DNA of 64,000 bases from a virus. Where the stretch lies: positions 23,837 to 87,836 of the IMG/VR virus record IMGVR_UViG_3300009502_001749, one strand, 5' to 3'. Shown piece by piece: positions 4,759 through 53,905 of this stretch (position 1 is the stretch's first letter; the number at the start of each line of letters is the position of its first letter). The notes beneath the pieces were generated by a model. That model did not search any database. It saw only the letters and a list, made by a program, of their open reading frames with translations, and was not told the origin of the DNA. Made by a program: the position numbers and the translations under genes.

Positions 4759-4773
4759 TTTCGGAGGTTTATT

Positions 4774-5315
4774 GTGATTAGTGTAAGTTATTTATTTGAG
4801 CTCGATACTTCAAATTTTACAAGAGAAGAAAAGAGACAATATCGTGAAGGTGCAAGAAAATTTCATCCTGATTTTAATGGTGGTAAAGATGAAGAAATGA
4901 AAAAACATAATAGTAGATGGGAACAGTTTGCTCACGCAAAAAAGTCTGGTTATAATAAATCATTTGATGATTATGCTGCTGAACAGAAAGCAAAAAACAA
5001 CAATCTTCTGGTTCTCAGCAACAATCTTCTGGAACGAATCAACCTGGTTCTCAGCAACAAAAGACAAATACTAGTTATGGTCACACTTATAATAAAGGAC
5101 AAGATTCTGGAACAAATCAATCTGGTTCTCAGAAAAACACAAATTCACAAAGTTCTAATTCTAAACAGAACACTGGAACAACAAATCAAAAACAAAGCAC
5201 AAATCAACAATCTTCTGCTGGAATAAATCAATCTAGTTCACAACAGAAAACAAGTTCAAAGCAATTTTATCCTGGATTTAAAAGTTCAATTTTTTCACAA
5301 ATAAGAAGAAAATAA
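4774..5315 (+). CDS. Tagged J-domain protein with apparent -1 frameshift
   Basis: GTG starts a protein beginning MISVSYLFE, the full tag. Residues about 15-65 form a J-domain-like helical hairpin with the HPD signature (ARKFHPDFNGG), the motif that stimulates Hsp70 ATPase in DnaJ proteins. At 4992-4998 the in-frame heptamer A-AAA-AAC occurs. The zero frame then runs 50 more codons of unlikely Leu-rich sequence to 5226. The -1 frame instead gives a low-complexity Gln/Ser/Asn/Gly tail ending YPGFKSSIFSQIRRK at TAA 5313-5315, 18 nt before the next ATG. I therefore annotate the -1 product, about 180 residues. An A7 run misread as A6 would also explain it. Confidence 0.65.
4992..4998 (+). other. 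Candidate -1 ribosomal frameshift slippery site
   Basis: The heptamer AAAAAAC lies in the phase X-XXY-YYZ (gcA AAA AAC) of the J-domain gene. It is a canonical bacterial -1 slippery sequence. Downstream coding sense moves to the -1 frame exactly here. I see no strong pseudoknot downstream by eye. Sequencing or assembly loss of one A is the main alternative. Confidence 0.5.
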
Positions 5316-5333: not shown

Positions 5334-5765
5334 ATGAAAACAATTAGAGAACAATTATTTGAAGGTAAGAAAGAAGATAATAAATTGAATAAAGCAGCAA
5401 AAATTGCTGGCACAACAGCTTTAACTGGCGCAGGTTTATATGGTGGAAAAGAATTAACAAGAGCTGTTATTGATGCATCAGAAGGTGGCGCACCTGCATC
5501 AGATACAATAGATGCTGTCGCATCACTTCATAATTCTACTATTGGAAAAATAGCAAGAGGAGTTAGCAAAGGTATTAGAAAAACTTTTACAAATGAACAT
5601 CCTTTATCAATTGAAGCAAAAGATAAAATGGGTGAATTAGCAGCTGGTACTTGGAAAGGAGCAAATCAAATTGGAGATATTGGAGGAGCTGTTGCAATTC
5701 CTGCGACAGTAACAGCATTAGGATTAGCAGCTTATAATAAATTAAAAAAAAATAAGAAGAAATAG
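5334..5765 (+). CDS. Tagged glycine-rich protein, paralogous leader to 1327 gene
   Basis: This 143-residue protein begins MKTIREQLFEGKKED, nearly the same leader as the gene at 1327. It has a hydrophobic Gly/Ala segment at residues about 25-42 (IAGTTALTGAGLYGG) and another near the C-terminus (residues 115-135, GGAVAIPATVTALGLAAY), followed by a Lys-rich tail encoded across an A9 run that is correctly in frame. It is a probable packaged protein with one or two membrane-active helices. The ribosome site is TTGGAGG. Confidence 0.8.
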   Translation: MKTIREQLFEGKKEDNKLNKAAKIAGTTALTGAGLYGGKELTRAVIDASEGGAPASDTIDAVASLHNSTIGKIARGVSKGIRKTFTNEHPLSIEAKDKMGELAAGTWKGANQIGDIGGAVAIPATVTALGLAAYNKLKKNKKK

Positions 5766-8599: not shown

Positions 8600-9201
8600 A
8601 TGGCAAGAAAAAAAGAAGATACAAATAAAAGTGCAAACAATAGTAGTTATGATTCTTCAAATTTTGAAAGTGCATCAACTAGTCAAGCTGAACTTTTGGG
8701 AACAGCATTTGAATCTATTATTACAACTAAATATGGATTTGCTAGAGCACCAGAACCTTATCTTACTCCATTTGGAATTCAACATTTGGATGGTTTAATT
8801 GGTGGAGGAATAACTTCTTCAGCACCAGTTATGTTAACATCAACTCCAGAAACAGGTAAAAGTACATTAGCTTTTCAGCTTTCAAAGATATTTCAAACAT
8901 TATATCCAAATTCGATGGTTGTTTATTTGGATATTGAAACAGCAGCAAATAAATCTAATAAAAATAATGCAATGTCTCGAGTTAATATATTTGAGATTGA
9001 TGAAAAGAGATTCAGGTATGAACCTTTGGTTATTGATATAAACCAGTTGTTTGAGTTGATCGAACAGTTGTGTCAAGTAAAACAAATGTTTGAACAAAAG
9101 TCACAGAAAGAGTTTAAAGTATTTATTATTTGGGATAGTATAGCGGCAACACCTTCTTCTAAAGTTGCTGACGCTGAAGATCCAAATAAAATAATTGGGG
9201 T
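8600..9201 (+). CDS. uvsX: UvsX/RecA-like recombinase, exon 1
   Basis: Exon 1 encodes residues 1-200 plus two bases of codon 201. The Walker A motif TSTPETGKST lies at residues about 80-90 and the Walker B strand at about 170-180 (VFIIWDSIAATPSSK). This matches T4 UvsX and bacterial RecA, which form ATP-dependent strand-exchange filaments. The N-terminus is a short Ser/Asn-rich linker. The exon break at T9201 joins in frame to 9518, giving IIGVKARQLTFALEKYLP across the junction. Without splicing the frame would stop at 9224-9226. The joined gene is 1407 nt, 468 residues, a little longer than T4 UvsX. Confidence 0.88.
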
Positions 9202-9517
9202 TAGCTCTAGGCTTTGGCTCCAATAAAATCTTGTGAATTGCTGGAACACCCTTAAAACTTTTCTACTACAAAGTAATCTGAAAAGATAAACTTGAATGTT
9301 TAAAAAAGAAAAGATTGGGCAATCAGCAGCCGAGCTCCTAAAGAATCTGCTAAATTTTATGGAGAAGGTTCAACGACTAGTCGAAAGACGTAGAGTTTAA
9401 GTAAACTCGAAGCGCAAGACATTCAGAAATGAATGAAGATATAGTCTGATCTATATGGAAACATATAGCTGAATAAAATTCAGAAGAAGAATTAACGATT
9501 CTTCTTAAACACAAATG
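9202..9517 (+). ncRNA. Group I intron in uvsX, no ORF
   Basis: This 316-nt insertion has the conserved group I core blocks: AATTGCTGGAACACCC (P-like), AATCAGCAGCCGAGCT (Q-like), GGTTCAACGACTAG (R-like) and GATATAGTCTGATC (S-like). The pattern fits subgroup IA2, as in T4 td. The 3' end AAATG follows the rule that introns end in G. About 100 nt of the core (9237-9336) is nearly identical to the capsid-gene intron at 45674. No endonuclease gene is present, so this copy is not autonomous. Confidence 0.88.
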
Positions 9518-10322
9518 AAAAGCTCGCCAGTTAACATTTGCATTAGAAAAATATTTGCCAATGATGGCTTTTAACAGAATCACATTTCTTGCTATTGATC
9601 AAGTTCGTGCAAATCTTCAGATTGATCCTTACGCTCAAAAAGAAAAGTCAGTCGGGATCTTTAAAGATTATCGCGCCGCTACATCAATATCAGCTCTCAA
9701 TCATAGAGTTGCTCAATGGTTATTTTTATCCAGAAAAGCAGCTATAACACCAGATGATGGTTTGGGTATTAATGGTTGGCAGATGAATCTATATGTAGAG
9801 AAGAATAAAATTGCACCATCTCAAGAATCAATTACATGTGTTTTTGATAAAAGAAATGGTCTTCATAAATTTTGGAGTGAGTATATTTTCCTTAGTGAAA
9901 TGATGCCATCTGAAAAGAAATATTATAAAACTGAAGAAAAAATACCTTATCCATTATCAATTATAAAATCTGGACCTCAGGTTCATCTTGAGTTTATAGA
10001 TCCAACAACTGGAAATGTTACTTATTCATCAGATAATATGTATAAGAAAAATATGAACAAAGCATATGATTCAGATGCTCAATTTAAAGCTGCTTTTGAT
10101 TATGTTGTTAGTATGGCTGTTGAACTTAGAATTAAACAAGGTCTTTTTAGAGAGAATGAATCAAAAGTTAATTTAAGTTCTGAAGAGATTGAAGAATTTG
10201 AAACTGAAAGTCTTGTTGATGAAGATATAAATACACCTAAAATATCTGCCGCTGAACAAATTGTAGCAGAAATACCTTCAACTAATATTGAAACCGAAGC
10301 AACATATGAATCAATATTTTAA
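9518..10322 (+). CDS. uvsX: UvsX/RecA-like recombinase, exon 2
   Basis: Exon 2 completes the recombinase core (FNRITFLAIDQVRANL, the strand leading into the DNA-binding loop, then GIFKDYRAATSISALNHRVA) and a C-terminal region rich in Glu/Asp (ESKVNLSSEEIEEFETESL). An acidic tail is typical of RecA-family proteins and tunes DNA access. The small 255-residue reading from ATG 9555 would lack the first 12 exon residues and the ATPase half, so it is not a separate gene. The following gene starts 23 nt downstream. Confidence 0.88.
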
Positions 10323-12774: not shown

Positions 12775-12975
12775 ATGGAAACGAAGGATGAACTATTAAA
12801 TAAATATAAACATGATCCTTATTTGTTTATGAAAGATTTTATTATGAAACCAGGTCAAATATTTGATAAAAATCATGAAAAATTATTTATAAATTTACGC
12901 GAATTTTTAAAGAAAAGAATTAAAGCTAATGTGCCGATAGAAGATATCATTCATAAGGAGAGATATAATGATTAG
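12775..12975 (+). CDS. Unknown 66-residue protein
   Basis: This small charged helical protein begins METKDELLNKYKHDPYLFMK. It starts right after a terminator with TTGGAG before ATG, and it overlaps the next gene by 8 nt. No motif or family is recognised. Confidence 0.65.
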   Translation: METKDELLNKYKHDPYLFMKDFIMKPGQIFDKNHEKLFINLREFLKKRIKANVPIEDIIHKERYND

Positions 12976-13405
12976 TGTTAAACATTTATTTGAATCGTTA
13001 AATCAATCAAAGAAAATTGGAATTGTAGGATATTCTGCAATGAAGTTTGATGAAGATTTAGCTAAAAAATTAATTAATGAAGGACTAGATAATGTTGATG
13101 CTAAAGAAGGAGATGAACTAGTTTCTGGATTAACAGATTTAGGAATACCAGGATTGGCTTACAGAATTGGTAAAGAACGAAATATGAAACTTATAGGTAT
13201 AGCTTGTGAAAAAGCACATGATGAAGATAGTGTTTGTTATCCTGTTGATAGAGAAATAATAGTTGGAAAAAATTGGGGAGATGAATCAAAAACTTTTTTA
13301 GATTATATAGATGTTTTAATTAAAGTTGGTGGTGGAAAACAATCTAAAGAAGAATATGAAAAGTTTGATGGTCCTAAGATTAATTTTGAATTAGAATCTA
13401 AGTGA
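12968..13405 (+). CDS. Tagged SLOG/Rossmann-fold protein
   Basis: This 145-residue protein starts MISVKHLFESLN, the full tag. From residue 17 on it has a Rossmann-type nucleotide-binding pattern: KKIGIVGYSAMKF, then GDELVSGLTDLGIPGLAY and KLIGIACEKAH. This resembles the SLOG superfamily (LOG, DprA and TIR-linked ligand sensors). A packaged protein able to bind or cleave a nucleotide signal would be attractive as an early effector, but that is inference. The active-site Glu and Arg set of LOG hydrolases is not obvious. It overlaps the upstream gene by 8 nt. Confidence 0.7.
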   Translation: MISVKHLFESLNQSKKIGIVGYSAMKFDEDLAKKLINEGLDNVDAKEGDELVSGLTDLGIPGLAYRIGKERNMKLIGIACEKAHDEDSVCYPVDREIIVGKNWGDESKTFLDYIDVLIKVGGGKQSKEEYEKFDGPKINFELESK

Positions 13406-14596: not shown

Positions 14597-14605
14597 GGAG
14601 ATATG

Positions 14606-17401: not shown

Positions 17402-18088
17402 ATGTATAATTTTTTAACAGATCAAGATCATTTCAAAGTAATGAATGAATCAGCAGAAGCACTTAGAAAAATGAAAAATGAAAAAGTCATAAAGAGAGAT
17501 CCATTGGTAGTTTTATCGGAGCATCTTCAAGGTATAAATATTAATACTGAACTTTTTGAATCTTTTGATATAACTGTTTGGGAAGGAAAAGTTAAAGTTG
17601 ATGTATTATATTTTGAACAATTACTTCAGAAATTAAATGAAGATCAGATTGAATTAGTTGAAAATGCACTTGGTGTATATTTTAAAGATATAAGAATGAT
17701 ATATGAATTCATTAATCTTAAACCAGAAGTGTATGGAAAAAATATTGATATTAAGATTTTAGAAGATTCAAATGAAATGTGTCAACAGAAATTATCAAGT
17801 GTTATTTATGAATATTTTGATATTTATTTTTATGGATTATCTCCTGATAAAAGAGTTGATAAATATATTGAAACTTCTCGAGAATTATCCAGATCTTTAA
17901 TTAATGAAGGAATAGAGCCAGATGAGGCTATTGAATTTAGTATAAAAACAACTATAATGGAAAATTTACTTACAAAGATTGCTTTTCCGTTTGCAACATG
18001 GTCCAGAATAAATTATCTAATAGAATCTGAAGATTATGGCAAAGTATTCGATCAGAAAACATTGATTGAATTGGTCGAATCATTTTAG
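17402..18088 (+). CDS. Unknown 228-residue protein
   Basis: This acidic, helical protein starts MYNFLTDQDHFKVMNESAE after GGAGGAG. It has no membrane segment or catalytic motif that I can see. It lies between two larger virion-type genes in the same orientation, so a structural or assembly role is likely but unproven. Confidence 0.7.
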   Translation: MYNFLTDQDHFKVMNESAEALRKMKNEKVIKRDPLVVLSEHLQGININTELFESFDITVWEGKVKVDVLYFEQLLQKLNEDQIELVENALGVYFKDIRMIYEFINLKPEVYGKNIDIKILEDSNEMCQQKLSSVIYEYFDIYFYGLSPDKRVDKYIETSRELSRSLINEGIEPDEAIEFSIKTTIMENLLTKIAFPFATWSRINYLIESEDYGKVFDQKTLIELVESF

Positions 18089-18160
18089 AAAAAGGTAGGT
18101 TCAATATCGAAGATAGCCGCGGCTGTAATATAAATAAAGAAAACACAAGAGGGGTGTATC

Positions 18161-23866: not shown

Positions 23867-23888
23867 TTTGGAGGCGAAAAGAAAATTT

Positions 23889-24442
23889 ATGATACGGGCA
23901 CCATTTGTTTTAACTAAATATGATGAAGAGTCACTGAATCTTCTTCAAGAAAGTAATGGGATAAGTATTGATGAAATTAAACAAAACGAATGGTTTAAAT
24001 GTCGAGAAAATCCTTTTTATTTTATTTTGAACTATGTTTATCTACCAGAAGTTGGTGGAAAATTAAAATACACAAAAGAGTACTTACACCCAAAATTTAG
24101 AAGAATAATCAAATCAATATATAAAAATCATATGGCAATGTTGATGGCAAGTCGGCAGCTTGGGAAGAGCTCTATCGCTGCATGTCTTTTAGCATGGGCT
24201 TTAATCTTTTTTCCAAACAACAGAGTTGTCATTTTAAACTATCGAAAAATTGCCGCTCAAGAAAACTTAAAGAAAATAAAGTTTATAATACAAAATTTAC
24301 CAACATGGATGAAAATTCCTTATAGATCGAAAAGTGAAATTAAGGAATATGCTGAACTTCAAAACGGTTCAAGAATAGATACATTTTATCCTTCTTCAAC
24401 AAGTTCACCATCAACATTAGCTAGATCGCTTACAGTTCCGAT
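23889..24442 (+). CDS. terL: Terminase large subunit, exon 1
   Basis: The start is ATG 23889, 15 nt after GGAGGCG; a TTG at 23868 overlaps that ribosome site and is unlikely. Exon 1 encodes about 184 residues and holds the Walker A motif SRQLGKSS at residues 88-95, identical in style to T4 gp17 (SRQLGKT). The ATPase half packages DNA into the prohead through the portal. Exon 1 ends at T24442 after LARSLTVP plus two bases of an Ile codon. Joined to 25445, the gene is 1857 nt and encodes 618 residues, very close to gp17. Confidence 0.9.
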
Positions 24443-25444
24443 TAACTTATAAAGTCGCTTTCATCAGTAATGATGATCGAATAATCCGGTGAATTCAGGG
24501 AAACTCCTAGTAATAGGACAATCCTGAGCCAAGCTTTAAATCTTGCCGCTAACAAGATTTACTGAAGGTGCAACGACTATCCCGAAAGGGAGTACATTCA
24601 AGCGAGTGGAAGCGCCGGACAACCTTAAAAATGAAAAATAAAAAAGGAAATAAATATGGAAGAAAATGAATATAATAAAATGAATTATTCTCAAGATATT
24701 TTAAAAAGATTTTGGAGTAAGATAGAAATTCCAGTTGATTGGGAAACAAATGATCAATGTTGGAAATGGAAAGCTAGTACATGGAAAGGATATGGACAAT
24801 TTTTATTATATGAAAATAAAAAAGTAAGAGCTCATAGATTTATATATGAATATTATTATGGTCCAATTTTAGATGATTTAATTATAAGACATAAATGTGA
24901 TAATCCAAGTTGTTGTAATCCTAATCATTTAATAACTGGTACTCAAATAGATAATGTAAATGATATGATTGAAAGAAAAAGACAAAATAATGTTAAAGGT
25001 TCTGAAAATGGTAATTCAGTTTTAACAGAAGAACAAGTTATTGAAATTTTAGAAAATATTAAAAATGGGTTATATTCAACTCAATTACAAATATCTGATG
25101 ATTATTTTATTAGTAAATCTGTTATTAATAAAATTTTAAACGGATATTTGTGGAAATCTATTACAGATAAATATAATCTTGATGAATTAAGAAAGATATT
25201 TACACATCCAAATTCACAATTAACAAAAGAAGAAGTTTTAGAAATTAGAAAATTATTTTTGGATGGAAAAAATAATATTGAAATTGGTAAAGAATTTAAT
25301 GTTTCACCTATCACAATTTCAAGAATAAGAACTGGAAAATTATATAAAAATTTTTAAGGTTGATGAGATAGTCTAATCTACATAGTAATATGTAGCAGTC
25401 TAACAAGACGGGTAGAGAGTAGCGATCTCTATTGAATACAAATG
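24443..25444 (+). mobile_element. Group I intron in terL, carries HNH endonuclease
   Basis: This 1002-nt intron has a 5' hairpin TCATCA-GTAA-TGATGA with a GNRA-type loop, the core blocks CCGGTGAATTCAGGG, GAGCCAAGCTTTAAATC, GGTGCAACGACTATCCCG and GATGAGATAGTCTAATC, and a 3' end of AAATG. The block 24484-24614 is nearly identical to the helicase-gene intron at 36863 and related to the portal intron, defining family B. It splits terL immediately before the Walker B strand. The inserted HNH gene occupies 24656-25357. Confidence 0.9.
24656..25357 (+). CDS. HNH homing endonuclease (terL intron)
   Basis: This 233-residue protein has an HNH_3-type core: AHRFIYEYYYGPI, then RHKCDNPSCCNPNHL at residues about 80-95. 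The C-terminal half contains two helix-turn-helix-like repeats that likely read the target DNA (LTEEQVIEILENI and LTKEEVLEIRKLFLDGKN). It is homologous to the helicase-intron enzyme at 37034. It would cut intronless terL alleles and drive intron homing. It lies wholly within the intron downstream of the R block. Confidence 0.88.
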   Translation: MEENEYNKMNYSQDILKRFWSKIEIPVDWETNDQCWKWKASTWKGYGQFLLYENKKVRAHRFIYEYYYGPILDDLIIRHKCDNPSCCNPNHLITGTQIDNVNDMIERKRQNNVKGSENGNSVLTEEQVIEILENIKNGLYSTQLQISDDYFISKSVINKILNGYLWKSITDKYNLDELRKIFTHPNSQLTKEEVLEIRKLFLDGKNNIEIGKEFNVSPITISRIRTGKLYKNF

Positions 25445-26747
25445 TTTATATGTTGATGAAGTAGCATTTATTAGTCATATGGAAGAAATTTATGGGAGCG
25501 CACAACAAACACTTTCAAGTGCAAGAGACCAAGCTATAAAGAATGATTATCCTTACTTTATTTTAATGACTTCAACTCCAAATGGTGTTGAAGGTGATGG
25601 AAAATTCTTTTATGATTTTTGGACTAATGCAGTTGAATCAGATGATATTTTTGAAGAAGATCCAGAAAATGGAATGGAAGATTGGAAACCAGATATATCA
25701 GGTCTTCTTAATCAAGCAGATAGAAATAGTTTTATAAGAGTTAAATATCATTGGTCTGAAAATCCAGATAAAACTATGGCTTGGTATGAACAACAAAAGA
25801 AAGAACTTAACTTTGATCTTAGAAAAATAAACCAAGAATTAGATATTCTTTTTGTTGGTGGAACAAATTGTATTTTTACTGATGAAGTTTTACAAAAATT
25901 AACTTATATACCCAGAACTAATTATATTGAACTTTCAAATCAAGTTCAATTTGATATGTATGGAGAAATTGATGAACAAGATTATCTTTTAGTTGGAGTT
26001 GATACAGCAAGTTCAATTAAAGGAGCTTTTAATGCTATAGAATTGTTTTCTTATAGAGATTTTATCCAGTTAGGTGAAGCTAATATTCGTTTGGGTTCAT
26101 TAACTAAATATGGTGAAACAGTTGATTCATTATTTAGAAATTTATATAAAACAACTAAGAGAATACTTCTTTGTATAGAAAATAACTCAATTGGTAAAGC
26201 TGTTATTGAACATTTAATTTATCATGTTAAAGATTTTAATTATATGCCTTTTATATATAAAGAAAAGAAATTGGATATGACAGATAAAGATGAATTTGGA
26301 ATATCAACAACAGGTCAATCAAAAGAATTAATGGTTTCACTTTTTTATGATCATATTAATCAAAATCCAGGATGTTTAAAGTCACAGAATTTGATTGCTC
26401 AGTTAGGTACAATACAAAGATCAAATCGTGGTACTGTTAAAGGTTCTGGTTATAGTGATATGTTTATGTCTGGTAGTTTTTGTGCATATGTTAGGAATAA
26501 AACTTATCTAGATATTTTGCCGCTATTAGGACAATCAAATAAACAAGTACAAGATACATTTTTTAACTCAGTAAAAACAGCTGCTGAAATGATGAATGTT
26601 AAATTAATTATTAAAAATTCAATTCAACAAGAAACAGGATATTTATCTATTGAAGAAGATAGATATAGAGATGAAGAAGCAAGACATGAACATGATACAA
26701 TAATGGATGAAGATTGGAGAGTGTTTATACCTATTTTAACACCATAG
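25445..26747 (+). CDS. terL: Terminase large subunit, exon 2
   Basis: Exon 2 starts by completing the Ile codon and then encodes LYVDEVAFISHMEE, the Walker B strand with catalytic Glu. It continues through the coupling region (FILMTSTPNGVEGDGKFFYD) to the RNase-H-like nuclease domain, with acidic residues in LLVGVDTASSIKG, LLCIENNSIGK and a C-terminal HEHDTIMDED. The nuclease cuts concatemers during headful packaging. No start codon is needed; translation depends on splicing. Confidence 0.9.
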
Positions 26748-35915: not shown

Positions 35916-36821
35916 ATGGATTTTGCATCAAACAGTACAAAAAAAGTTGTATCAAATTCTTTATTAAAAGCTTTCATATCAAGATATGTTGCAGAAGATT
36001 TTTTTACAAATATTGCAAGAATAATTCTTTATCCATCTGATTTTGGTAATTTTATTTCAGATAGAACAAATTCTGTAATTGATTATATGCAAGAATTTTT
36101 AAAGAGTTTATCAATTTTTTCTGGTAAATTACAACTGCAAAATACTAAAGTTGTTAGAAGTCAAATTGCTATTTTAAGTTCTTTATTAACAATTAGAGAA
36201 ACAAGTCCAATTTTATTAACTTATGATAATGTGAATCAACATTTAATGCCAGGACAAGATTTAATTGTTACTAAACTTATTCAAAAATGTGTTGATGAAA
36301 GAATTACTGATCCTGATGAATTTAGAAAAATTACAGATGAAATTATCAGTACAATTTCTTCTTATTATGAAATGATGTCAGCTTCAGATAGTATTACTAT
36401 GGTTGGGAATCTTTATGATTTGATTAATGAAGGTAATCTTGTGCCGATGGAAACATTAAAAAGTTATAAAGATGTTATTAATGTTGCATATAACGATTTA
36501 TCTAAATTACAATCTTTAAGTAAAGCTGAAACAGCTGCAGATTATTTTGTTATTTCAGATGATAAGTCTTGTGATGCATTATCAAAAACATTAGTTAATT
36601 ATGTGTCAAAAGGTTTTTCAGTATTTAAAACTGGTTTTGATTTATTTGATAAATATATTAATGGAATTGAAAGTTCCAGCGTACATTTGATAGGGGCTCC
36701 GAGCAACCACGCTAAGAGTTTGTTTACGATTAATCTCTCATATAGAATGATAAAAAATAATCTTGCCGATTTCGATAAACAAGATTGTATATTATTTGTA
36801 ACATTAGAAGATTTAGTTAAT
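35916..36821 (+). CDS. DnaB-type replicative helicase, exon 1
   Basis: Exon 1 encodes 302 residues, counterpart of T4 gp41. The N-terminal primase-interacting helical region is followed by the RecA-like motor: Walker A variant GAPSNHAKSLF at residues about 260-270 and the next strand CILFVTLED at about 292-299. The P-loop has Ala where GxxxxGK normally has Gly before Lys. I place the splice at T36821 because LVN then joins DIYKLIRRF in frame; 36818 or 36812 are also in frame. The joined product would be 628 residues. Confidence 0.82.
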
Positions 36822-37796
36822 AACTAACTTTGTCTCTTTTACTGGTGACAGTAATTGAAAAAATCCGGTGAATTCAGGGAACATCCTAGTAATAGGACAA
36901 TCCTGAGCCAAGCTTTAAATCTTGCCGCTAACAAGATTTATTGAAGGTGCAACGACTATCCCGAAAGGGAGTACACTCAAGCGAGTGGAAGCGCCGGACA
37001 TCTTGAGAAATTTAATATTATGGAGTTATTAAAATGTTTAATGAAATGAATTACCCAGAAAAATATATTATAAGATTTTGGGACAAAGTAAATGTTCCAA
37101 AAGATTGGGCTGAAAAAGATCAATGTTGGAAATGGAATGGACTTTTATTTATAAAAACTAATTATGGAAGTTTTTCTTTTAATGGTAAAAATCTTAAAGC
37201 TCACAGATTCTCATATGAAATTCATTATGGTCCAATTCCTGAAGGATTAGATGTTATGCACAAATGTGATAATCGAAAATGTGTAAATCCAAATCATTTA
37301 AAAGTTGGTTCCAGAAAAGAAAATATGGAAGATTGTGTTGAAAAAGGAAGATCAAAATTTGGTTCTAAAAATAATATGTCTAAGTTAACAGAAAATAATA
37401 TTATAGATATTATTAATAAAAGTTTAAATGGAACATATACAAATAGAAATCAAGTTATTAATGATTATAAAATATCATTATCAGAACTTTCAAATATTCT
37501 TTGTGGAAAAAGATGGACACATATAACTTCTAATTTTACACAACAAGAAATTGAAAAAGTAAAATATTTATTAGGATGTAGGTTATCAATAGAAGATATT
37601 GCTGATATAAAAATGAGATTAGATAAAGGTGAATCACAAAGTTCAATAGCTAGAAGTTATAATATATCTCAACCGGTAATATCAAATATGATAAAATTTA
37701 TAAAACTCAAGATGATGAGATAGTCTAATCTTATAGGTAACTATAAGCAGTCTAATAAGACGGGTAGGGAGTAGCGATCTCTATTGAATAAAAATG
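36822..37796 (+). mobile_element. Group I intron in helicase gene, carries HNH endonuclease
   Basis: This family B intron of about 975 nt is a near copy of the terL intron: the hairpin TTACTG-GTGA-CAGTAA, the core block beginning CCGGTGAATTCAGGG at 36863, GGTGCAACGACTATCCCG and GATGAGATAGTCTAATC, ending AAATG at 37796. The 5' boundary is uncertain by a few codons. An HNH gene occupies 37034-37723. Confidence 0.88.
37034..37723 (+). CDS. HNH homing endonuclease (helicase intron)
   Basis: This 229-residue protein is homologous to the terL-intron enzyme: FWDKVNVPKDWAEKDQCWKW, AHRFSYEIHYGPI, then MHKCDNRKCVNPNHL as the HNH core at residues about 75-90. The C-terminal region has helix-turn-helix-like repeats (SIARSYNISQPVISNMIK). 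The recognition regions differ more than the core, as expected for enzymes that target different genes. A ribosome site TGGAG precedes ATG. Confidence 0.88.
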   Translation: MFNEMNYPEKYIIRFWDKVNVPKDWAEKDQCWKWNGLLFIKTNYGSFSFNGKNLKAHRFSYEIHYGPIPEGLDVMHKCDNRKCVNPNHLKVGSRKENMEDCVEKGRSKFGSKNNMSKLTENNIIDIINKSLNGTYTNRNQVINDYKISLSELSNILCGKRWTHITSNFTQQEIEKVKYLLGCRLSIEDIADIKMRLDKGESQSSIARSYNISQPVISNMIKFIKLKMMR

Positions 37797-38777
37797 GATA
37801 TTTACAAATTAATTCGTAGGTTCGCGTCAATATATGGAAATTATAAATTTGAATCTTTAAAAAGATTATTTTCAAAATCATATGAAATGACAAGAGCAAC
37901 ACAAATAATGGACATGTCAACTGAAGCAAGTTCAAGATTGTATAATAATTTAGACGGGATGTTTAAAAATGTTTTAAAAACAAGTATTGCTAAAGTAACA
38001 CAAGGTAAAGTTAATATAGCAATTAAACATTGTTCAGAGAATTCGTTTTCTCCTGGTGATTTAGGAAGATTTATAGATCGTTTGAATATTGAAGGTTATA
38101 AGATTAAGATGGTCTTTGTAGATTACTTAGATGTTATGTCTGCGACAATTAACAGATTTGGTGGAGCAGGGAAAGAATATGATATACTCGGTCAGATCAC
38201 ACAAGAACTTCGTAACTTAGCTCGTATACATAAAGTACCAATAATAAGTCCTACACAGAATAGAAGAGAGTCAGAGAATGTAAGCACAAAACTAAGTAAT
38301 GAACAAACTGGTGATTCATATAAAAAAATCAGATATTCGGATTTTATATATTCATGTAGATTAAGACCAGATTTAGATTTTCTATCTGAAGGAGTTAGAC
38401 ATCATGTGATTCCAACAAAAGTAAGTCCAGATGGAACAATTGCAGATTTTATTTCTCCAGAACTTATAAAACTTAAAGAAAGCTTATTTAGAGTATTAGT
38501 ACCTTTTGAAGTTAAAATTACAAAGTCAAAAGATTCAGAAAAAGATTCAACAAAATTTTTCTTATTTTGTAAAGAAAATTTGAGAATGTATAATAATGTA
38601 GATGAATATATTAAAGATGCTCCTGTTCTTGTTGCTAATAGTGAAAAGTTAGAGAAAGATATTGCTATATTAACTGAATTAGCTATTACAAGTGTTTCAA
38701 GTGGAATTAATGAATTTTTTGATAATGATCAGAGTGATATTGAATTTGGTGATATTCCAAATGTTGTTTTTGGATAA
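37797..38777 (+). CDS. DnaB-type replicative helicase, exon 2
   Basis: Exon 2 encodes DIYKLIRRFASIYGN and continues through Walker B (KMVFVDYLDVM), the glutamine motif (IISPTQNRRESENV) and the arginine-finger region (GDSYKKIRYSDFIYSCRLRP) of DnaB/gp41 helicases. The C-terminus is acidic. An ATG at 37794 overlaps the splice site but would give only half the motor. A shared terminator hairpin follows at 38823. Confidence 0.85.
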   Translation, partial: DIYKLIRRFASIYGNYKFESLKRLFSKSYEMTRATQIMDMSTEASSRLYNNLDGMFKNVLKTSIAKVTQGKVNIAIKHCSENSFSPGDLGRFIDRLNIEGYKIKMVFVDYLDVMSATINRFGGAGKEYDILGQITQELRNLARIHKVPIISPTQNRRESENVSTKLSNEQTGDSYKKIRYSDFIYSCRLRPDLDFLSEGVRHHVIPTKVSPDGTIADFISPELIKLKESLFRVLVPFEVKITKSKDSEKDSTKFFLFCKENLRMYNNVDEYIKDAPVLVANSEKLEKDIAILTELAITSVSSGINEFFDNDQSDIEFGDIPNVVFG

Positions 38778-39917: not shown

Positions 39918-41468
39918 ATGTCATTATTTGGCCAGTTTTTTAAAGATGATTCACTTGAAAATTTTGATGCTAGAATAGATTCACTTGTTAGTCAATTTCC
40001 TTCTACTGAAAAAGGAGAACCAGTTGATTTGTTATCTGGAGATTTTATTTCATCGTTTATGGAACATTCATCTAAAGATGAACTTGAAAAAGTACTTGCA
40101 GGAATATCTGTTTCTAGAGATAGACTTGAAAGATATGCTGTTTATGATGAAGCATATAAATATGTACCAATTCTGAAACGTATGATGAAAGTTTATGTTG
40201 CTAATATTTTACAAAAGAATCCAGTAACAGGTAAAAGCGTTCTCATTCAAGAGTCTGGAGATTTAACAAAAGAAAAGCGTCAGAATAAAGAAATTTTAGA
40301 ATCGGCGAAAGATTTTGCCGATAAATGTATTAAATCATTCGATTTATTAGCTAGATTAAAAAACAAAATTTTACCAAATGAACTAACCTATGGTGACTGT
40401 TATCTTGAAGTTGTTGATGTGAATCAAGAAATTAAAAAATCTGATCCGGAAGGTGCTGCAGCAGTTCAAATGACTACGTTGTTTGAAGGTGATTTAATAA
40501 ATATGACTGCTGAAGTTGATCAAATGAAAAATCGAGCAAATGGTCATTTGCCGATAGGACAAATTGATCAATTATTATATAAGACCGCTGAATATTTGGC
40601 TGATATTGAAGTTGCTTCTATTACAGAGTATGATCCTAATGAAAAGGATGATGAAGATAAAAAGAAACAAAGTAATGGATCAACAAATTATGCTGATAAT
40701 TCATCAACAAAAACTAGTGATAAAGAAAACAAAAAAGAAGTTCAAGATTTTAATGATATTGTTATTAAAATTCATAAACCTCACAATATTATAGTTTTAC
40801 AAACAAACTATGGATCAACTATAGGATATCTTGAAGTTGCAAAAGATGAATTTCCTCAAGTATTTAATTTAACTCAATCTCTTTCAACTTTAGTAGGACG
40901 TATAACATCACTAGTAGGAAAAGATCAATTAAGTCAAGATAATGTAACTGATAGGATTGTTCGATTTATTGTAAAACAAGCATTAGATAAAGCTGATAAG
41001 TCTAAAGCTTTTGATATGAGTCAGCAGAATGTACAGAATATTAATGACATTCTGAAAAATTTAGACCCACAAGTTTACACTTACATTAAAAGATTAATTA
41101 TCGAACAAGGATTAAATCAGACACAGTCACAATATCTTAACAAGTTAAAGATCAGATTTATTTCTTCAAGCCGTATGATTTCATTTACAGTTCCATCGAA
41201 TGAGTATGATCCGTATGGAATTTCGTTTATTGATAATTTAGTATTTCAGTGTAAGTTGTATATTCTTTCACAGTTGTCTAATGTGATTATGAAGTTGAGT
41301 AGAGCTGCGCCAGTAAGAAAATGGACGATAGATACGGGCAGCACTCAAATGCACGCTAACTTGATTCAGAAGTTGAAACGTGAGCTTTACAATACAAGAG
41401 TAACATTAGATGATTTAGGTAGTTTTAAGAGTATTCCCAAGCTGTTAAGTGACTTCAAGGATAAATTT
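39918..41468 (+). CDS. Portal protein, exon 1
   Basis: Exon 1 encodes 517 residues of a T4 gp20-like portal: a helical N-terminus, an acidic linker (residues about 235-275, NEKDDEDKKKQSNGS), and the clip/stem region (SRMISFTVPSNEYDPYGISF, KLKRELYNTRVTLDDLGSFK). The portal is the dodecameric channel that nucleates the prohead and docks terminase. I place the splice at T41468, so that DFKDKF joins FVLAKGGNK. The joined gene is 2124 nt, 707 residues, longer than T4 gp20 (524). Confidence 0.8.
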
Positions 41469-42875
41469 TTGTCCCCTATATCAGTAATGATATTTGAAAA
41501 ATTCGGTGAATTCGGTGGAACTCCTAGTAATAGGACAATACCGAGCCAAGCTTTAAATCTTGCTGCTAACAAGATTTATTGAAGGTGTAACGACTATCCC
41601 GAAAGGGAGTACGTCCAAGCGGACGGAAGTGCCGAATATCCTGTAATAGTAAAATAAAAAGTATGGAGGACAGCGCCGGCCAGCGTTGATAGATACCGAT
41701 TTATCTATCTTACTCCTTTTAAACAATTAACCTAATCGGAGGATTACAAATGAATAAAGAAAAAATTGAAAAAGCAAAACAAATTATAAAAAATTTTAAA
41801 AATGAGGAAGAACATTCAAATTTTATTTTTAAAATGTGTATTGAATGGAAATTATCTATTGAAGAAATTTCAGAATGTTATAATAATTATACTCCAGATC
41901 TCATTAAACAATTTTTGATTGAAGTGTATAAAGTTGAGTTTAAAAAGTGTAAAAAATGTTGTGAAACTAGATCAATAACATCTTTTACAAAACAATTTAA
42001 AGATAGTAATATAACTCGATCTTATTGTAAAGTTTGTAATAATCTTGAAAAAGCAAAATATAGAAAAATTCCAGAAGTGAGACAAAAAATATTGAATATG
42101 CTAAAGAATATAATCAAATGTATAATATTAATAATAGAGAACAAATTAAACAAACACATCATGAATATTATGAAACAAATAAAGATATTATATCTCAAAA
42201 ACAGAAAGAATATTATGAATTACATTCAGATGATGTTAAACAAAGATCAAAAGATTATTATTATGATAATCAAGAAAAATTTATACAACTTAGTATAGAT
42301 TATAAAAAACAACATCCAGAATGTGCTGAATACAGTAAAGAATATAATAAAATACATCATGATGAATTATTAGAATATAAAAATGAATATAATAGAAATA
42401 AATATAAAACAAATTCAAAACATAGATTAAGAGTTTGTTTTGGTTCAAATTTATATAATTCAATTAAGAATTTAAAAAGTGGTAGAAAATGGGAAGAAAT
42501 TGTTGGATATACTCTTGAACAACTTATGGAACATCTTGAGTCTAAATTTGATGATAAAATGACTTGGGATAATTATGGAAGTTATTGGCATGTTGATCAT
42601 ATTGTTGGAGTTGCAAATTTTAATTACACATCTTATGAAGATGAAGCTTTTAAAAAATGTTGGTCGTTAGAAAATTTACAACCTTTATATGGAGTTGATA
42701 ATCTTAAAAAAGGTGACACAATTAGTGAAAAATGGAATAATACTGAGTTAGCAGCTCAATTACTTATGTAACATAAAATTACAGGATAATGATATAGTCT
42801 AGTCTGTATAGTAATATACAGTTGTCTTTAAAAAGACAGGTTAGAAGTTGCGATTCTAGCTGAATATAAACGATG
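41469..42875 (+). mobile_element. Group I intron in portal gene with decayed HNH gene
   Basis: This intron of about 1407 nt is a more diverged member of family B: the hairpin ATATCA-GTAA-TGATAT, AATTCGGTGAATTCGG, GAGCCAAGCTTTAAATC, GGTGTAACGACTATCCCG, then GATATAGTCTAGTCTG, ending GATG at 42875. A GC-rich patch (CAGCGCCGGCCAGCG, 41670-41685) is unlike its surroundings. The encoded endonuclease frame is broken. Confidence 0.85.
41750..42771 (+). pseudogene. HNH endonuclease in portal intron, frame broken at A6 run
   Basis: The first part (from MNKEKIEKAKQIIKNFKN to about KIPEVRQK) contains a Cys4 motif (KKCKKCCETR, YCKVCNN) like that of the capsid-intron enzyme. At about 42083-42088 (CAAAAAAT) coding sense moves to the -1 frame, which continues through YYETNKDIISQKQKEYYE repeats to the HNH core (YWHVDHIVGVANFNY, ENLQPLYGVDNLKKGD) and stops at 42771. 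One added A would restore a protein of about 340 residues. It is a likely inactive homing enzyme, or a sequence error. Confidence 0.7.
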
Positions 42876-43448
42876 TTCGTGCTCGCGAAGGGCGGAAATA
42901 AACCTATAGATGTTGAAGTGACTTCACATGGCGACCCCACAATCAGAGTCGCAGATCTTGAAGATTCAAGAAGGGAAATAATGAGCTTGTCCGGCATACC
43001 CCCAGCATATTTGGGCTACGCGGACGTGATCGAATTGCGCGAGCAACTAGTTCACACAAACATCTCTTTCGCTACAGAAATAATTGATATGCAAGAGATA
43101 ATTACAGCTGGTCTTACAAAATTTGTAGATATTGTAGCAGAAATTTTAAATGTTAAATATAAACCATCGGAATACGTACAGATTAAATTAATTCCACCGA
43201 TAGTTTTAATTCTTCAGTTGATTGAGATGACTCTGTCATCAATTGGTAATATTAATGGAATATTTCAAACGTTACAAACTCCAGTTGATCCTTATTTCTT
43301 CTTAAAACAATATGTACCATATATTGATTGGGATGCGTTTAGAACAGCAGCAGATCAATATGTTACTGATCAAAAAACAAAAGCTGAAATAGATGCTAAT
43401 AAGAATCCTGGAAATTCGAATCCTGAACCTGGAGCTGAAGGAGGGTAG
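42876..43448 (+). CDS. Portal protein, exon 2
   Basis: Exon 2 encodes FVLAKGGNKPIDVEVTSHGD and continues through LSGIPPAYLGYADVIELRE, the conserved portal region that in T4 gp20 follows the channel loop. The first 200 nt use markedly more G and C at wobble positions (TTCGTGCTCGCGAAGGGCGG, GGCTACGCGGACGTGATCG) than the rest, suggesting a recent exon conversion from another phage together with the intron. The C-terminus is Asn/Gly/Pro rich. The next gene starts 3 nt downstream. Confidence 0.82.
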   Translation, partial: FVLAKGGNKPIDVEVTSHGDPTIRVADLEDSRREIMSLSGIPPAYLGYADVIELREQLVHTNISFATEIIDMQEIITAGLTKFVDIVAEILNVKYKPSEYVQIKLIPPIVLILQLIEMTLSSIGNINGIFQTLQTPVDPYFFLKQYVPYIDWDAFRTAADQYVTDQKTKAEIDANKNPGNSNPEPGAEGG

Positions 43449-43450: not shown

Positions 43451-43879
43451 ATGTTTTTAGTTGAAGTTTTATTTGAACAACAAACTCAAACACCATCCCA
43501 AGTTCCTCCAGTGCAAATTGTACAACATGTTAATCAGCCTGAAACTAAACAACCTGAACCTACTTCACAACAGGATCAAGATGTTCCTCAGGAACAACCT
43601 GAACAACAACTTTCAGGAGATGAACTGGATGCTGTTCAGGCACAAGAAATGGGAATTGCTCCAGATCTTATGCCGATAAAAAAATATTATTTAATCAACA
43701 GATTAAAAGAGTTAAAAACCCAATTGGGTGAGTACAGTATACAAAATGATGAACTTAATATTGTACTAAAATTTGCCGATAATTTATCTTATAGTTCATT
43801 ATTAAGTATTGGAATGATACTTATTGATTTTATTGAACAACAATTAGCGAGGTTAACAGATGGCAAAAATAAAAGCTAA
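43451..43879 (+). CDS. Tagged Gln/Pro-rich protein, scaffold or core candidate
   Basis: It begins MFLVEVLFEQQ, a tag variant ending V-L-F-E. Residues 10-60 are a Gln/Pro-rich disordered linker, followed by two helices (MPIKKYYLINRLKELKTQLG and a C-terminal amphipathic helix). It lies between portal and protease, where T4 keeps core genes 67 and 68, and overlaps the protease start by 20 nt. A prohead core or scaffold peptide cut by the protease is the best guess. Confidence 0.6.
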   Translation: MFLVEVLFEQQTQTPSQVPPVQIVQHVNQPETKQPEPTSQQDQDVPQEQPEQQLSGDELDAVQAQEMGIAPDLMPIKKYYLINRLKELKTQLGEYSIQNDELNIVLKFADNLSYSSLLSIGMILIDFIEQQLARLTDGKNKS

Positions 43880-44621
43880 GAAATATAATTTTATATTTGA
43901 AACCACCTCGATTAATTCACGTGATGATATTAAAGTTTTAGAAGAAACAAAATTGCCTAATGGTAATGGAAAAATTGCAGCCTCAGTTAGACTTCAGGAA
44001 GCAGAAATGAAGAATAGTAATAGTCGATATTACTCAACTGCGATTTGTGAATCCATAGTGAGTCAGTTATCTCCGAAAGCAACGAGTCGATCATTATTAA
44101 TGGAGATTGATCACCCACTTTTTGTAACTTCAGCTGACGATGTTAAAAGACGTGCGTCAATCGTAGAAATTAATAATTGTGGTGGTTTGTTAAGAAAGAT
44201 AGATTTTGCCAATAATAAAGTAGGTGGAATCTTTGAAACCCTTAGTGGATTTAAAGGTCCGGATTTGTACAACATAATAATGAAAGATCAGGTAGACATA
44301 GGATTTTCATTGAGAGCTCTTGGTGCAGTCGAACAGCTTCAGGATGGAACAATATTAGTCAAAGATCCTATAAAACCAATCACGTATGATGTAGTTTCGA
44401 ATCCAAGTCATGCAACGGCAAAAGTTCTTGAATTCTTACCAGAAAACGTTACAGAGTATATGTCTGAACACAGTGTGATTTATGAAGCTGCTGATATAGA
44501 AATGTTAGATTTAGATCATATAACAATTTCTGACAGTACAATTTCACTAACTGAATTTTTTGATGATATTTATAGACAGAAATTTTCAGATGTTATTAGT
44601 AGAATAACTTTTAGAGTTTAA
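43860..44621 (+). CDS. Prohead protease, T4 gp21-like
   Basis: This 253-residue protein carries the family pattern: KLPNGNGKIAASVRLQEAEM, NSRYYSTAICES, LLMEIDHPLF with the candidate catalytic His, and QVDIGFSLRALG with the candidate catalytic Ser. It would cleave scaffold, capsid and tagged internal proteins after Glu in an L/I/F-x-E context, as T4 gp21 does. That makes it the natural processor of the L-F-E tag found on the small genes. It overlaps the upstream gene and precedes the capsid gene by 34 nt. Confidence 0.82.
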   Translation: MAKIKAKKYNFIFETTSINSRDDIKVLEETKLPNGNGKIAASVRLQEAEMKNSNSRYYSTAICESIVSQLSPKATSRSLLMEIDHPLFVTSADDVKRRASIVEINNCGGLLRKIDFANNKVGGIFETLSGFKGPDLYNIIMKDQVDIGFSLRALGAVEQLQDGTILVKDPIKPITYDVVSNPSHATAKVLEFLPENVTEYMSEHSVIYEAADIEMLDLDHITISDSTISLTEFFDDIYRQKFSDVISRITFRV

Positions 44622-44655: not shown

Positions 44656-45623
44656 ATGTACGATCAAGCGATATTCGAAAATTATGAAATGTTCTTAAAT
44701 GAGCATAGTGATGAATTTTCTACTCCAAGTGGAGCTTTAAAACTCATTACAGATAACGGTATGTTTAGGGGTTACATGGAAGGACTTACAAATGGTCTTG
44801 ATTCAAATCAGAGAGCAGTTGCTATGGCAGTTGCAAATCGTCAGAGAGAATATCTTTTGACAGAATCTGCAAACGTTCCTGGTAGTACACTTGCATTTGG
44901 TTGGACTGTACTTAGCTTTCCTATTCTTGTTGATATTTATGCTGAGCCAGTAATAAGTGAATTATGTAATGTTTATCCGGTTTCATCCCCAGTAGCATCT
45001 ATTCCCAGAATCAAAATCATGGCTTATATTAGAGGCTATGATGGTAACGTAACACAGGTCAGAATGCCTACGCTTAATCAGGCTGTTAGACCCGGTGCAT
45101 TGAATCTTACAGTAACACCTGCAGTAAGCAACAGCATATTTACTATAGCTTCAGCGGCAGTTGCTCCTGCAACAGTAACGTCTGATATGTACAGAATTAA
45201 TAGAAGGTATACACTTCTTACAGCAGTTCAGGTAGCAGAAACTACAGCTCTTGGTCCTGTTGTAAATCATAATGTTGTAGTAACAATAAAGCCTGATAAT
45301 AGAAATCAGTTTGTTGGTACTTTTACATTTAACGATAATACTCCTGCTCCTGTAGGTCCAGTTGCTATCGTTGGTACATTGAATGGTCATATTAATTATG
45401 ATTCTGGAATTTTTCAGTATCAGGTAATTTATGCTGTTGGCGCAACTACTTCTACATTTGCAACAACTTCAGCAACAATGACTATACGTTTTATGTCTCT
45501 GACAACTCAGAATGGTCGTATAAAGGTCAAAATTCAGACTGAAATGACTGACGTAAGTATAGATCAGAATGAAGATTTTCTCATCGAATTACCACCTGAA
45601 GATATACAAGATTTTCGCGCGAT
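44656..45623 (+). CDS. Major capsid protein, exon 1
   Basis: Exon 1 encodes 322 residues plus two bases. The N-terminus (AIFENYEMFLNEHSDEFSTP) contains F-L-N-E, a candidate protease site for removal of a propeptide, as in T4 gp23. The body (STLAFGWTVLSFPILVDIYA, SPVASIPRIKIMAYIRG) fits the gp23 fold. Its wobble bases are C/G-enriched compared with most genes here, consistent with high expression. The splice at T45623 joins RAI to FKIDILRTLSEAIKRQ. The joined gene is 1608 nt, 535 residues, close to gp23 (521). Confidence 0.88.
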
Positions 45624-45865
45624 CAACAATTAAAGGTCGCTTTCACTAGTAATAGTGATCGAATAATTTTCCTAATTGCTGGAACACCCTTAGAGCTTTT
45701 CTACTACAAAGTAATCTGAAAAGATAAACTTGAATGTTTAAAAAAGAAAAGATTGGGCAATCAGCAGCCGAGCTTCTGTAAAATGAAGAAGGTTCAACGA
45801 CTAGAGCGCAAGCTCGTAGACTCAAGCGAGTCGAAATGGAAGAAATCCTTGAATATTTAACATTT

Positions 45866-45881
45866 TCATATAGAAATAATA
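45866..45881 (+). promoter_or_regulatory. Candidate promoter for intron HNH gene
   Basis: TTCATATAGAAATAAT lies about 45-60 nt upstream of ATG 45927, inside the intron. T4 intron endonuclease genes also have their own late promoters, so this placement makes sense. Confidence 0.5.
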
Positions 45882-45926
45882 AATTAAGTCTAGCCAACTT
45901 TGAACTAATTTATTATGGAGGTGAGA

Positions 45927-46823
45927 ATGGAAAAAGAATGTTGTAAATGTCATCAAATTAAAGATGAATCAGAATTTGAAAAAAGAAATGATGTTAATTA
46001 TTGTCATAAATGTACGAGTATTAATAATAGAAGAAGAAAAATCAAGAAAAATACTCCAGAAGAAAACTTTCAATTCTTATATAAACTATATATGAGAGGT
46101 GAAACAGTAGAAGATTGTTGTTTGTACTTTGAAACATCTAATAATATTATCATTGAAGCTTTAAATCTATTTGGAATTTTTCCAGATCAAACTGATAAAT
46201 TATTTTGCTCAAAATGTAATCAAATGAAATCATTTGATGAATTTGATCAAAGTAAGAATAGAAGAGGATTTAAACCTTGGTGTAAAACATGTAATAAAGA
46301 ATATAATGATACATATTATGAAGATAATTCAGATTATATTAAACAAAAAACTCTTAATTACTATTATGAAAATTATGATATTGAAGTTGAAAGACGTATT
46401 AAATATCATTATGATCATAGAGATGAAATTCTTGAAAATAAACGTATAATGAGACAAAATGAAGAGTTTAAACAAAATAAAGCTATTTATGATGCATCAT
46501 ATTATGAAATATATAAAGAAGAAATTAAAGAAAATATTTATCAATGGAAAATAAATAATCCAGCAAAAGTAAGAGAAATACAAGAATTTTATCGTATAGC
46601 AAAATTACAAGCAACACCTAAATGGATTGATAGAGAAGAAATTTTAAAATATTATATTGAAGCTAGAAGATTAACAGAAGAAACTGGAATATTATATTCT
46701 GTTGATCATATCATTCCATTACAAGGTGAAAATGTATGTGGTTTACATGTTCCATGGAATTTACAAGTTATTACACAATCAGAAAATTGTAGAAAAAATA
46801 ATAAAGTTTTAGTAGAAATGTGA
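45927..46823 (+). CDS. HNH homing endonuclease (capsid intron)
   Basis: ATG 45927 follows GGAGGTGAG; the ATG at 45915 would overlap that site. The product is about 298 residues: two Cys knuckles (ECCKCHQIKD / YCHKC, and FCSKCNQMK / WCKTCNKEY), a long tyrosine-rich helical spacer, and the HNH core YSVDHIIPLQGENVCGLHVP with NLQVITQSENCRKNNK. This architecture is shared with the broken portal-intron enzyme but not with those in terL and the helicase. The stop lies inside a terminator hairpin. Confidence 0.85.
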   Translation: MEKECCKCHQIKDESEFEKRNDVNYCHKCTSINNRRRKIKKNTPEENFQFLYKLYMRGETVEDCCLYFETSNNIIIEALNLFGIFPDQTDKLFCSKCNQMKSFDEFDQSKNRRGFKPWCKTCNKEYNDTYYEDNSDYIKQKTLNYYYENYDIEVERRIKYHYDHRDEILENKRIMRQNEEFKQNKAIYDASYYEIYKEEIKENIYQWKINNPAKVREIQEFYRIAKLQATPKWIDREEILKYYIEARRLTEETGILYSVDHIIPLQGENVCGLHVPWNLQVITQSENCRKNNKVLVEM

Positions 46824-46848
46824 TTGGCTATCACATTTCTTTTTGTTT
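46814..46848 (+). terminator. Terminator after intron HNH gene
   Basis: The hairpin GAAATGTGA-TTGGCTA-TCACATTTC is followed by TTTTTGTTTTT and overlaps the HNH stop codon. It could attenuate capsid pre-mRNA unless antitermination or folding intervenes. Confidence 0.65.
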
Positions 46849-46941
46849 TTCAAGGATTATGATATAGTCTAATCTCATAAGAAATTATGAGCTGTCTGAA
46901 TAAGACGAATAAAATTTAGCGAATTTTATTGAATATAAATG

Positions 46942-47581
46942 CTTTAAGATCGACATTTTACGTACACTTTCCGAAGCAATAAAAAGACAGATCATGTTGA
47001 ACAAAGATCAGGATCTTGCTTTCTTCTTAGCAGCTTCAGAAGGCGATATGGCATCTAACGGTGCTGCAGAAGCATTGAATCTTGATAGTTACGATGTAAC
47101 CGGCGGTCGTTTCGAACCTAACAAAGTTATCGATGTATTTAAGGCTGTAATTCCTAAGATTTCTATTCTTACTGGAATTATAAGAAAGAATTTCAACATG
47201 TATCCTTCTTATTTAGTAGCTGGTTTAAAGACTGCTGCTTTGTTAAGATCAGTTCAGACATTTGCACTCCAGATGCCGGGTATTGGAAATGGCGACGGCG
47301 CAATGGGTTGGGCAGGAGATGTTGCACAGATGTTGAAGATGAAAGTTCTTGAATCTAATGCAATCGCAGAAGGTAAGATATATCTTTCAACAAAAGCTCC
47401 GAATAATGCTCTTGAAAAATCTACTATAGTTGATTTGATTTATCAACCTCTCTACATCGTAACTGAGGTAACTGATGGTCAGACCAGAAACTATGTAAGA
47501 TCAAGAACTCTTATTGAAATTCCTAGAACAGATGGTCTTGGAGTTATCAATATAACTGGTCTTGGTACTTATTTTACGTAA
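46942..47581 (+). CDS. Major capsid protein, exon 2
   Basis: Exon 2 encodes the C-terminal 212 residues (DILRTLSEAIKRQIMLNKDQ, NMYPSYLVAGLKTAALLRSV, VTDGQTRNYVRSRTLIEIPR), including the axial and P-domain-like regions of HK97-type capsids. An ATG at 46994 is internal. The G/C-enriched codon choice continues from exon 1. A shared terminator follows 23 nt after the stop. Confidence 0.87.
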
Positions 47582-53182: not shown

Positions 53183-53905
53183 GTGTTAAATAATAATGAA
53201 GTGTTTGTAAAAGATGATTATGTAATTTTTGATAAATTAGCTTTAGAAATGAAAAAAAGACCTGGTAGAGGTCCAATTGGTTGGGTTCAAATTTTTCTTC
53301 AAACAAAAAATGGTCTTGTTTATGATGAAGGTTCAAATCTTGTAAGTGCACGAGGTCGTGAATTTGTTGCACAAAAGTTATTTGATTGTAATACTTATGT
53401 TGGTGGTACAAGAACTGATTGGAGAAAACATTTAGTAAGTCATTTTGCAGTTGGATCTGGTGGTTCTACAGTATCAGGTGGAACAGTAACTTTATTAGGT
53501 CCTTATATATGTGATACACAATTAATTCAAGGAATAGATCTTGGTATAAGTGGATATTTAACAGAGCCAGGAGGAACAATAACAGCTGTTAAACCAATAA
53601 CGTCAGATTTTGGTTCTACAGTTTTAGAGGTGCAAAGTTATAGTGGTGGAATAGTTTCATGTGACTATTATACCAAAATAAAAAACACTTGTATTGTTCC
53701 ATCAGGAGAACCATTTGATTTAAATCCAGGGGAATCTGTTAAAATTGATGAGACAGGACTTTATTTTGTATTGAATTCTGCCGCTAATCCATATACAGAT
53801 CCACCAATATACTCAGATCCACAATTATTTGCTCATATTTGTTTCGCTCCAAAATGGAAAGAAAAAGAGAGCTCACTAACTATTATTTGGTATATTTTGT
53901 GTTAA
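53183..53905 (+). CDS. Tail-fibre or baseplate appendage-type protein
   Basis: GTG 53183 follows GGAGGTTTT. The 240-residue protein has GLVYDEGSNLVSARGREFVA early and then Gly/Ser/Thr-rich beta sequence (VGSGGSTVSGGTVTLLGPY), a composition seen in fibre and collar proteins. It contains three to four Cys residues. An 81-nt gap follows before the sheath gene. The function is uncertain. Confidence 0.6.
   Translation: MLNNNEVFVKDDYVIFDKLALEMKKRPGRGPIGWVQIFLQTKNGLVYDEGSNLVSARGREFVAQKLFDCNTYVGGTRTDWRKHLVSHFAVGSGGSTVSGGTVTLLGPYICDTQLIQGIDLGISGYLTEPGGTITAVKPITSDFGSTVLEVQSYSGGIVSCDYYTKIKNTCIVPSGEPFDLNPGESVKIDETGLYFVLNSAANPYTDPPIYSDPQLFAHICFAPKWKEKESSLTIIWYILC

Follow-up and report, generated by a model that had tools for sequence, protein, structure and literature searches.

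What does the short stretch at 4774–5315 encode, given that it opens with a nine-residue tag, continues into a helical segment carrying an HPD tripeptide and ends in a low-complexity tail that lies in a different reading frame? We examined this locus, here called the J gene, within a 64,000-base window (the whole stretch of DNA analysed, bases 23837–87836 of an 87,836-base virus record), alongside a sister phage (IMGVR_UViG_3300021520_000002) and a third relative (IMGVR_UViG_3300028920_000044). The reading that we lean towards is of one accessory gene from a large T4-related phage, encoding a plausibly packaged protein formed by tag, J-like domain and tail, with its frame most likely broken by a deletion or error.

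One gene in two reading frames

The 0-frame ORF starts at a GTG codon with a GGAGG upstream and ends at 5226 (Table 1). Codon scores, based on usage trained on 28 clear window ORFs (12,369 codons), separate true genes (0.355 ± 0.17 per codon) from wrong frames (−0.62 ± 0.21). Before the junction, the J gene has a frame-0 score of +0.32 per codon; past it the −1 frame scores +0.385, against −0.679 for the 0 frame. These scores show that coding proceeds in the −1 frame from 4998 to 5312, and that the Leu-rich 0-frame end resembles any wrong frame and is no selected product. This −1 frame reads QQSSGSQQQSSGTNQPG... up to a TAA that falls just upstream of the ribosome-binding site of the next gene (GGAGG). 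The −1-frame stops flanking the junction are at 4980–4982 and 5313, so the switch between frames must fall after 4982, at or near the A run.

Two other readings of the tail were rejected: the +1 frame, which scores −0.46 and holds several stops, and a separate ordinary gene, since the tail frame has no ORF of at least 50 aa starting with ATG, GTG or TTG. Because the −1 frame is coding-like and the tail ORF has no start of its own, we assign the tail to the J gene as its second half. The earlier note had claimed that the tail can be reached only through the −1 frame, and codon scores, stop positions and the missing tail start all agree with it.

Table 1. Features of the J gene and of related genes, in window coordinates
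Feature	Position	Strand	Basis
Ribosome-binding site of the J gene, GGAGG	4763..4767	+	sequence
Tag MISVSYLFE (codons 1–9, GTG start); resembles a capsid-targeting peptide, with an LxE cleavage motif at its end	4774..4800	+	
J-like domain, matching known J domains over helix II, the HPD loop and helix III; for helix I an overlap with the tag is expected	4810..4977	+	
HPD tripeptide, residues 31–33	4864..4872	+	sequence
A-AAA-AAC heptamer at the frame junction, over 0-frame codons GCA AAA AAC	4992..4998	+	sequence
−1-frame basic tail, Gln/Ser/Asn/Thr-rich, 105 aa, 76% Q+S+N+T+G, pI 10.5; stop TAA 5313–5315	4998..5315	+	
Leu/Ile-rich 0-frame continuation, without coding signature	4999..5226	+	ORF list, codon score
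Next tagged gene (MKTIREQLFE...); lacking at the matching site of the sister phage	5334..5765	+	
Head-maturation protease (Peptidase S80-like), presumed tag-cleaving enzyme	43860..44621	+	Pfam S80 and PHROG

The frame junction

The earlier note saw a slippery heptamer at this junction and proposed programmed −1 frameshifting there, which would give two products, one long, with the J-like domain and Gln/Ser tail, and one ending in the Leu-rich stretch. As regards the heptamer itself, A-AAA-AAC does lie at the junction in the phase given, and it shares the X-XXY-YYZ pattern and phase of bacterial −1 frameshift cassettes (dnaX, IS1/IS3 families). The same heptamer is a strong site under eukaryotic rules, and frameshift stimulators are not always present in bacteria. 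Its strength in bacteria is another matter: Sharma and colleagues list A-AA.A-AA.C among the low-efficiency heptamers in E. coli, although some bacterial insertion sequences very likely use it despite this (PMC4066793).

Where the J gene departs from the dnaX and IS1/IS3 cassettes is in this low efficiency, in the lack of a detected stimulator and in the absence of a nearby 0-frame stop. No Shine–Dalgarno-like element was found 6–17 nt upstream of the heptamer; a stimulatory RNA structure was rejected, because downstream folding does not stand out, with z scores of 0.16 and −0.57 and a place at the 24th percentile of random windows; and the 0-frame end runs on, unselected, for ~75 codons. Two structural genes that seem intact, a portal-region ORF (40359) and the gene at 53681, also contain A-AAA-AAC in phase, and its in-phase number among the window ORFs (2, against 1.5 in synonymous shuffles) is about that expected. 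In-phase A-AAA-AAA, by the same count, is under-represented (2 against 10.7). The phase of the heptamer is no independent evidence, because the loss of one A from an in-frame GCA-AAA-AAA-C yields the same heptamer in the same phase. Single-genome cases of this sort are mostly of other origin, a survey of more than 200,000 predicted frameshifted prokaryotic genes having assigned unclustered cases mainly to sequence errors, indels and gene overlaps, while allowing for orphan recoding (PMC3711429).

Recoding retains some support beyond the heptamer, its phase and the insertion-sequence precedent. The tail is intact, with good codon use throughout and no further lesion, and no other indel frameshift was found among the window proteins that match sister proteins, the single two-frame case being an intron-like insert; the assembly therefore seems sound. 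(This comparison was made at the protein level, the raw blastn indel list being too noisy through compensating gaps.) Taken together, these points leave programmed frameshifting improbable, and the two-form proposal of the earlier note is not sustained, given a 0-frame end without coding signature, a low-efficiency heptamer without stimulator and the same heptamer in two intact genes. The frameshift proposal is in itself probably unimportant.

Low heptamer efficiency in E. coli, the lack of stimulators and the unselected 0-frame end instead point to a recent loss of one base, or to a sequence error, as the most likely cause of the offset. If assembly or sequencing alone produced it, the true phage gene is continuous and functional, which suits the clean full-length tail with its gene-like codon use, and homopolymer A runs are typical places for errors; set against this, the sister-matched proteins of the window hold no second indel frameshift, and a recent real deletion would give the same pattern. 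We see in such an error a serious candidate that falls short of an even chance. The same may be said of a genuine pseudogene, in which a real deletion has stopped production of the long form: the locus is accessory and patchy, being absent from both the sister and the third relative, but the tag and J-like domain are intact and no second lesion is present, so that any decay would be very recent. With the gene as written, most ribosomes would produce the tag, the J-like domain and 75 unselected residues.

A J-like domain of weak but consistent similarity

The Pfam DnaJ profile matches residues 18–43 of the J gene product (E 1.7e-3, 18.8 bits) without reaching its curated cut-off of 27.8 bits, and for this reason we term the domain J-like. 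A DnaJ search of the whole 87.8 kb record returned the J gene as its sole match (E 2.5e-4). The best PDB sequence match (E 2e-4) is the J domain of DNAJA1, with an alignment that spans helix II, HPD and helix III, and the 35 PDB matches listed at E ≤ 1 are nearly all J-domain proteins, SV40 T antigens included. The J proteins of Aeromonas phages 65 and Aswh_1 can also be aligned with the domain, with 21 columns in common that include YR, HPD and GG. The HPD-containing J-like domain described in the earlier note is thereby upheld, with a Pfam score that stays sub-threshold and a similarity that is weak but consistent.

In J domains the residue after HPD is usually Arg or Lys; here it is Phe. 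Together with the overlap between the helix I region and the tag, this means that full J activity is not assured. The J fold has four helices; an AlphaFold model made from one sequence has three helices at poor confidence (pLDDT 67), and a PDB fold search with it returned no match. The HPD stretch might accordingly be no more than a chance tripeptide in a helical hairpin that does not bind DnaK, a reading that would account for the sub-threshold Pfam score, the absence of helix I outside the tag, the non-canonical following residue and the model without fold match. It has to contend with the E value of 2e-4 to DNAJA1, with PDB matches that are nearly all J domains, with helix II, HPD and helix III all agreeing in position with J domains and with the alignable phage J proteins, and we consider it very doubtful.

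A tag family resembling capsid-targeting peptides

The tag that the earlier note placed at the amino terminus is confirmed: read from the GTG, codons 1–9 give MISVSYLFE, and the identical nine residues open the ORF at 250. Searching the window with a degenerate form of the pattern gave 5 occurrences, whereas 100 shuffles gave 0. With a strict pattern we found 8 sites in the phage's own record, 13 in the sister and 4 in the third relative (0 for a reversed-pattern control), and a loose one opens ORFs preceded by ribosome-binding sites, of which the window has 12 and 39 kb of the sister 16. Many tagged ORFs are small and basic, and most carry an LxE-like motif near the start; the Leu and Glu are residues 7 and 9 in MISVSYLFE and residues 8 and 10 in the window tags MKTIREQLFE (5334) and MKSIREQLFE (1327). 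The tags are conserved at the residue level while their codons vary, and they occur on unrelated domains.

Several carriers have recognizable similarities. The sister encodes a tagged protein with a LigD 3′-phosphoesterase domain (L050 2283–2717, MISLTNLFE..., Pfam LigD_N E 2e-19), which by its domain match suggests that the tagged set includes an enzyme of DNA-end repair. The tagged window protein at 14603–15211 matches DUF5662 (E 1.8e-22) and has a looser start, MMLSLSYLFE, and that at 12968–13405 has weak, sub-threshold SLOG-like similarity; the sister has both.

In phage T4, packaging needs no more than the first 10 residues of IPIII, its capsid-targeting sequence, in which positions 4 and 7 are important in targeting and positions 8 and 10 in cleavage (PMC9026906). 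T4-type internal proteins are a highly diverse set with only this targeting sequence in common (PMC3012670). The tagged proteins are like T4 IPI, IPII, IPIII and Alt in having a short N-terminal peptide that ends in (L/I)xE and in being small, mostly basic and hypervariable (PMC9026906, PMC3012670). A head-maturation protease is likewise present in both T4 and the window record, the gene here having a Pfam S80 match just under the cut-off (E 1.6e-4) and a PHROG match to head maturation protease (E 4.7e-15). In these respects the tag is similar to capsid-targeting peptides of the T4 type, which are cut at (L/I)xE, and by analogy with T4 we infer prohead targeting and cleavage through these tags. 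The two systems differ in that most tags here have nine residues (MIS[VI]xxLFE) and are far more numerous. The claim of the earlier note that the J-like protein is packaged gains plausibility, by this analogy, from the tag family and the head-maturation protease. Cleavage after LFE would strip away the stretch equivalent to helix I and could thereby weaken a J domain.

Another common N-terminal motif, such as a conserved region of translation initiation or a peptide that binds a different phage protein, could in principle produce a similar family, and some tagged ORFs are indeed acidic and several tags end without a clear LxE. Conservation of residues despite varied codons argues against this, as do the LxE ending, which is the cleavage motif of T4-type proteases, the unrelated and mostly basic small carriers and the nearby head-maturation protease gene. 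We regard such a motif as an unlikely explanation and retain the resemblance to capsid-targeting peptides.

An accessory orphan gene in a large-phage genome

Pattern searches gave 5 matches in viral contigs and 54 in genome contigs, none of them confirmed as a J-gene homologue, and neither set yielded a homologue with a continuous frame from J-like domain to tail. Protein and DnaJ-family searches found none in the sister or the third relative, the tail had no match in the sister, and a plasmid search gave weak matches only (best listed E ~0.04). A DNA pattern combining tag and HPD picked out 36 contigs, which were rejected because they all hold the same recurrent stretch of prophage, without relation to the tag; the DNA pattern of ribosome-binding site plus tag had no match.

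A neighbouring 425-aa protein is 87% identical in the sister; with its two-sequence alignment as the query we recovered the sister again and nothing else, and genome contigs held no relative of it. At the matching place in the sister, an MKTNE... gene (L003 8685–8888) is followed directly by an MISIMESFF gene (8922), the J gene and the MKTIREQLFE gene being missing, and the third relative has no ORF there that resembles the J gene. In the present data the J gene is an accessory orphan, as expected of T4-type internal proteins.

At least five core genes of the window are interrupted. A RecA/UvsX-like gene (8600–10322) holds an insert of ~310 bases (9211–9519) that is absent in the sister, a candidate intron without its own ORF, and the terminase gene (23868–26747) has an insert of ~1 kb with an HNH-like ORF (24656–25357) where the sister has none. 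The DnaB-like (35916–38777), portal-like (39918–43448) and major-capsid-like (44656–47581) genes each contain an insert bearing endonuclease-like ORFs, one of which (45915–46823) matches endonuclease VII families. At 17402–18130 the sister protein aligns 14–15 residues past the stop of the window ORF at 18088, so the window gene has an early in-frame stop near its end. In the upstream part of the phage's own record, an ORF with a long low-complexity repeat of the GTSGSSG type (L045 3747–4529) may encode a tail-fibre-region protein.

Comparison with known phage chaperone genes

T4-related phages are known to encode J-domain proteins, and the window protein, with its J-like domain, is similar in this respect. 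Rki (gp057w) of phage RB43 is a J-domain protein that binds DnaK and can aid phage growth, its J domain and C-terminal part both being needed for the effect, and it has homologues in RB16, RB42, KP15 and Aeromonas phage 65 (PMC3486835). The window protein differs from this family in its packaging-like tag and low-complexity Q/S/N/T tail, and the C-terminal domain of the Rki type is absent; conversely, the J proteins of phage 65 and Aswh_1 lack the MIS[VI] tag, starting MSK... instead, and their C-terminal domains are long and unrelated. Large phages that encode chaperone homologues also include the moraphages, with DnaJ and DnaK genes for which the cited sections describe neither virion packaging nor a tag (PMC12619734). 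Among the T4 internal proteins, none is described as a J-domain protein in the cited sections (PMC9026906, PMC3012670), and packaging in the window phage is proposed by analogy with them. Both elements have precedents, J proteins in phages and capsid targeting in internal proteins, and their combination is new; a targeted literature search of small extent found no report of a J protein with a packaging tag.

A proposed role at the start of infection

The features above would fit the following sequence of events. The J gene would give a basic protein of ~180 aa, in which a nine-residue tag of capsid-targeting type precedes the J-like domain and a polar basic tail that is probably disordered. 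The tag would draw this protein into the prohead core, where the head-maturation protease may cleave it after LFE, and it would then be injected alongside the DNA and many other tagged proteins. In the first moments of infection the HPD domain would engage host DnaK, as the earlier note had suggested, for example to help co-injected proteins fold or to redirect the chaperone. Possible ligands of the basic polar tail are DNA inside the head and substrates inside the cell.

In its fullest form the proposal is of a virion-packaged J cochaperone, injected beside dozens of tagged proteins, that at once recruits DnaK to refold this payload after tail passage or draws it away from defence or the sensing of stress, and in which cleavage in the prohead might change helix I; as a whole this is speculative, and less likely than not to hold. 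One bacterial NLR-like defence system requires host DnaJ for phage sensing (PMC12169576), and diversion of DnaK thus has a possible link to defence through DnaJ-dependent sensing. Should the proposal be true, the phage genome would enter the cell accompanied by a cochaperone of its own, and the folding or activation of tail-injected proteins would become testable. The wider tag family provides a candidate list of injected proteins in an undescribed group of large phages.
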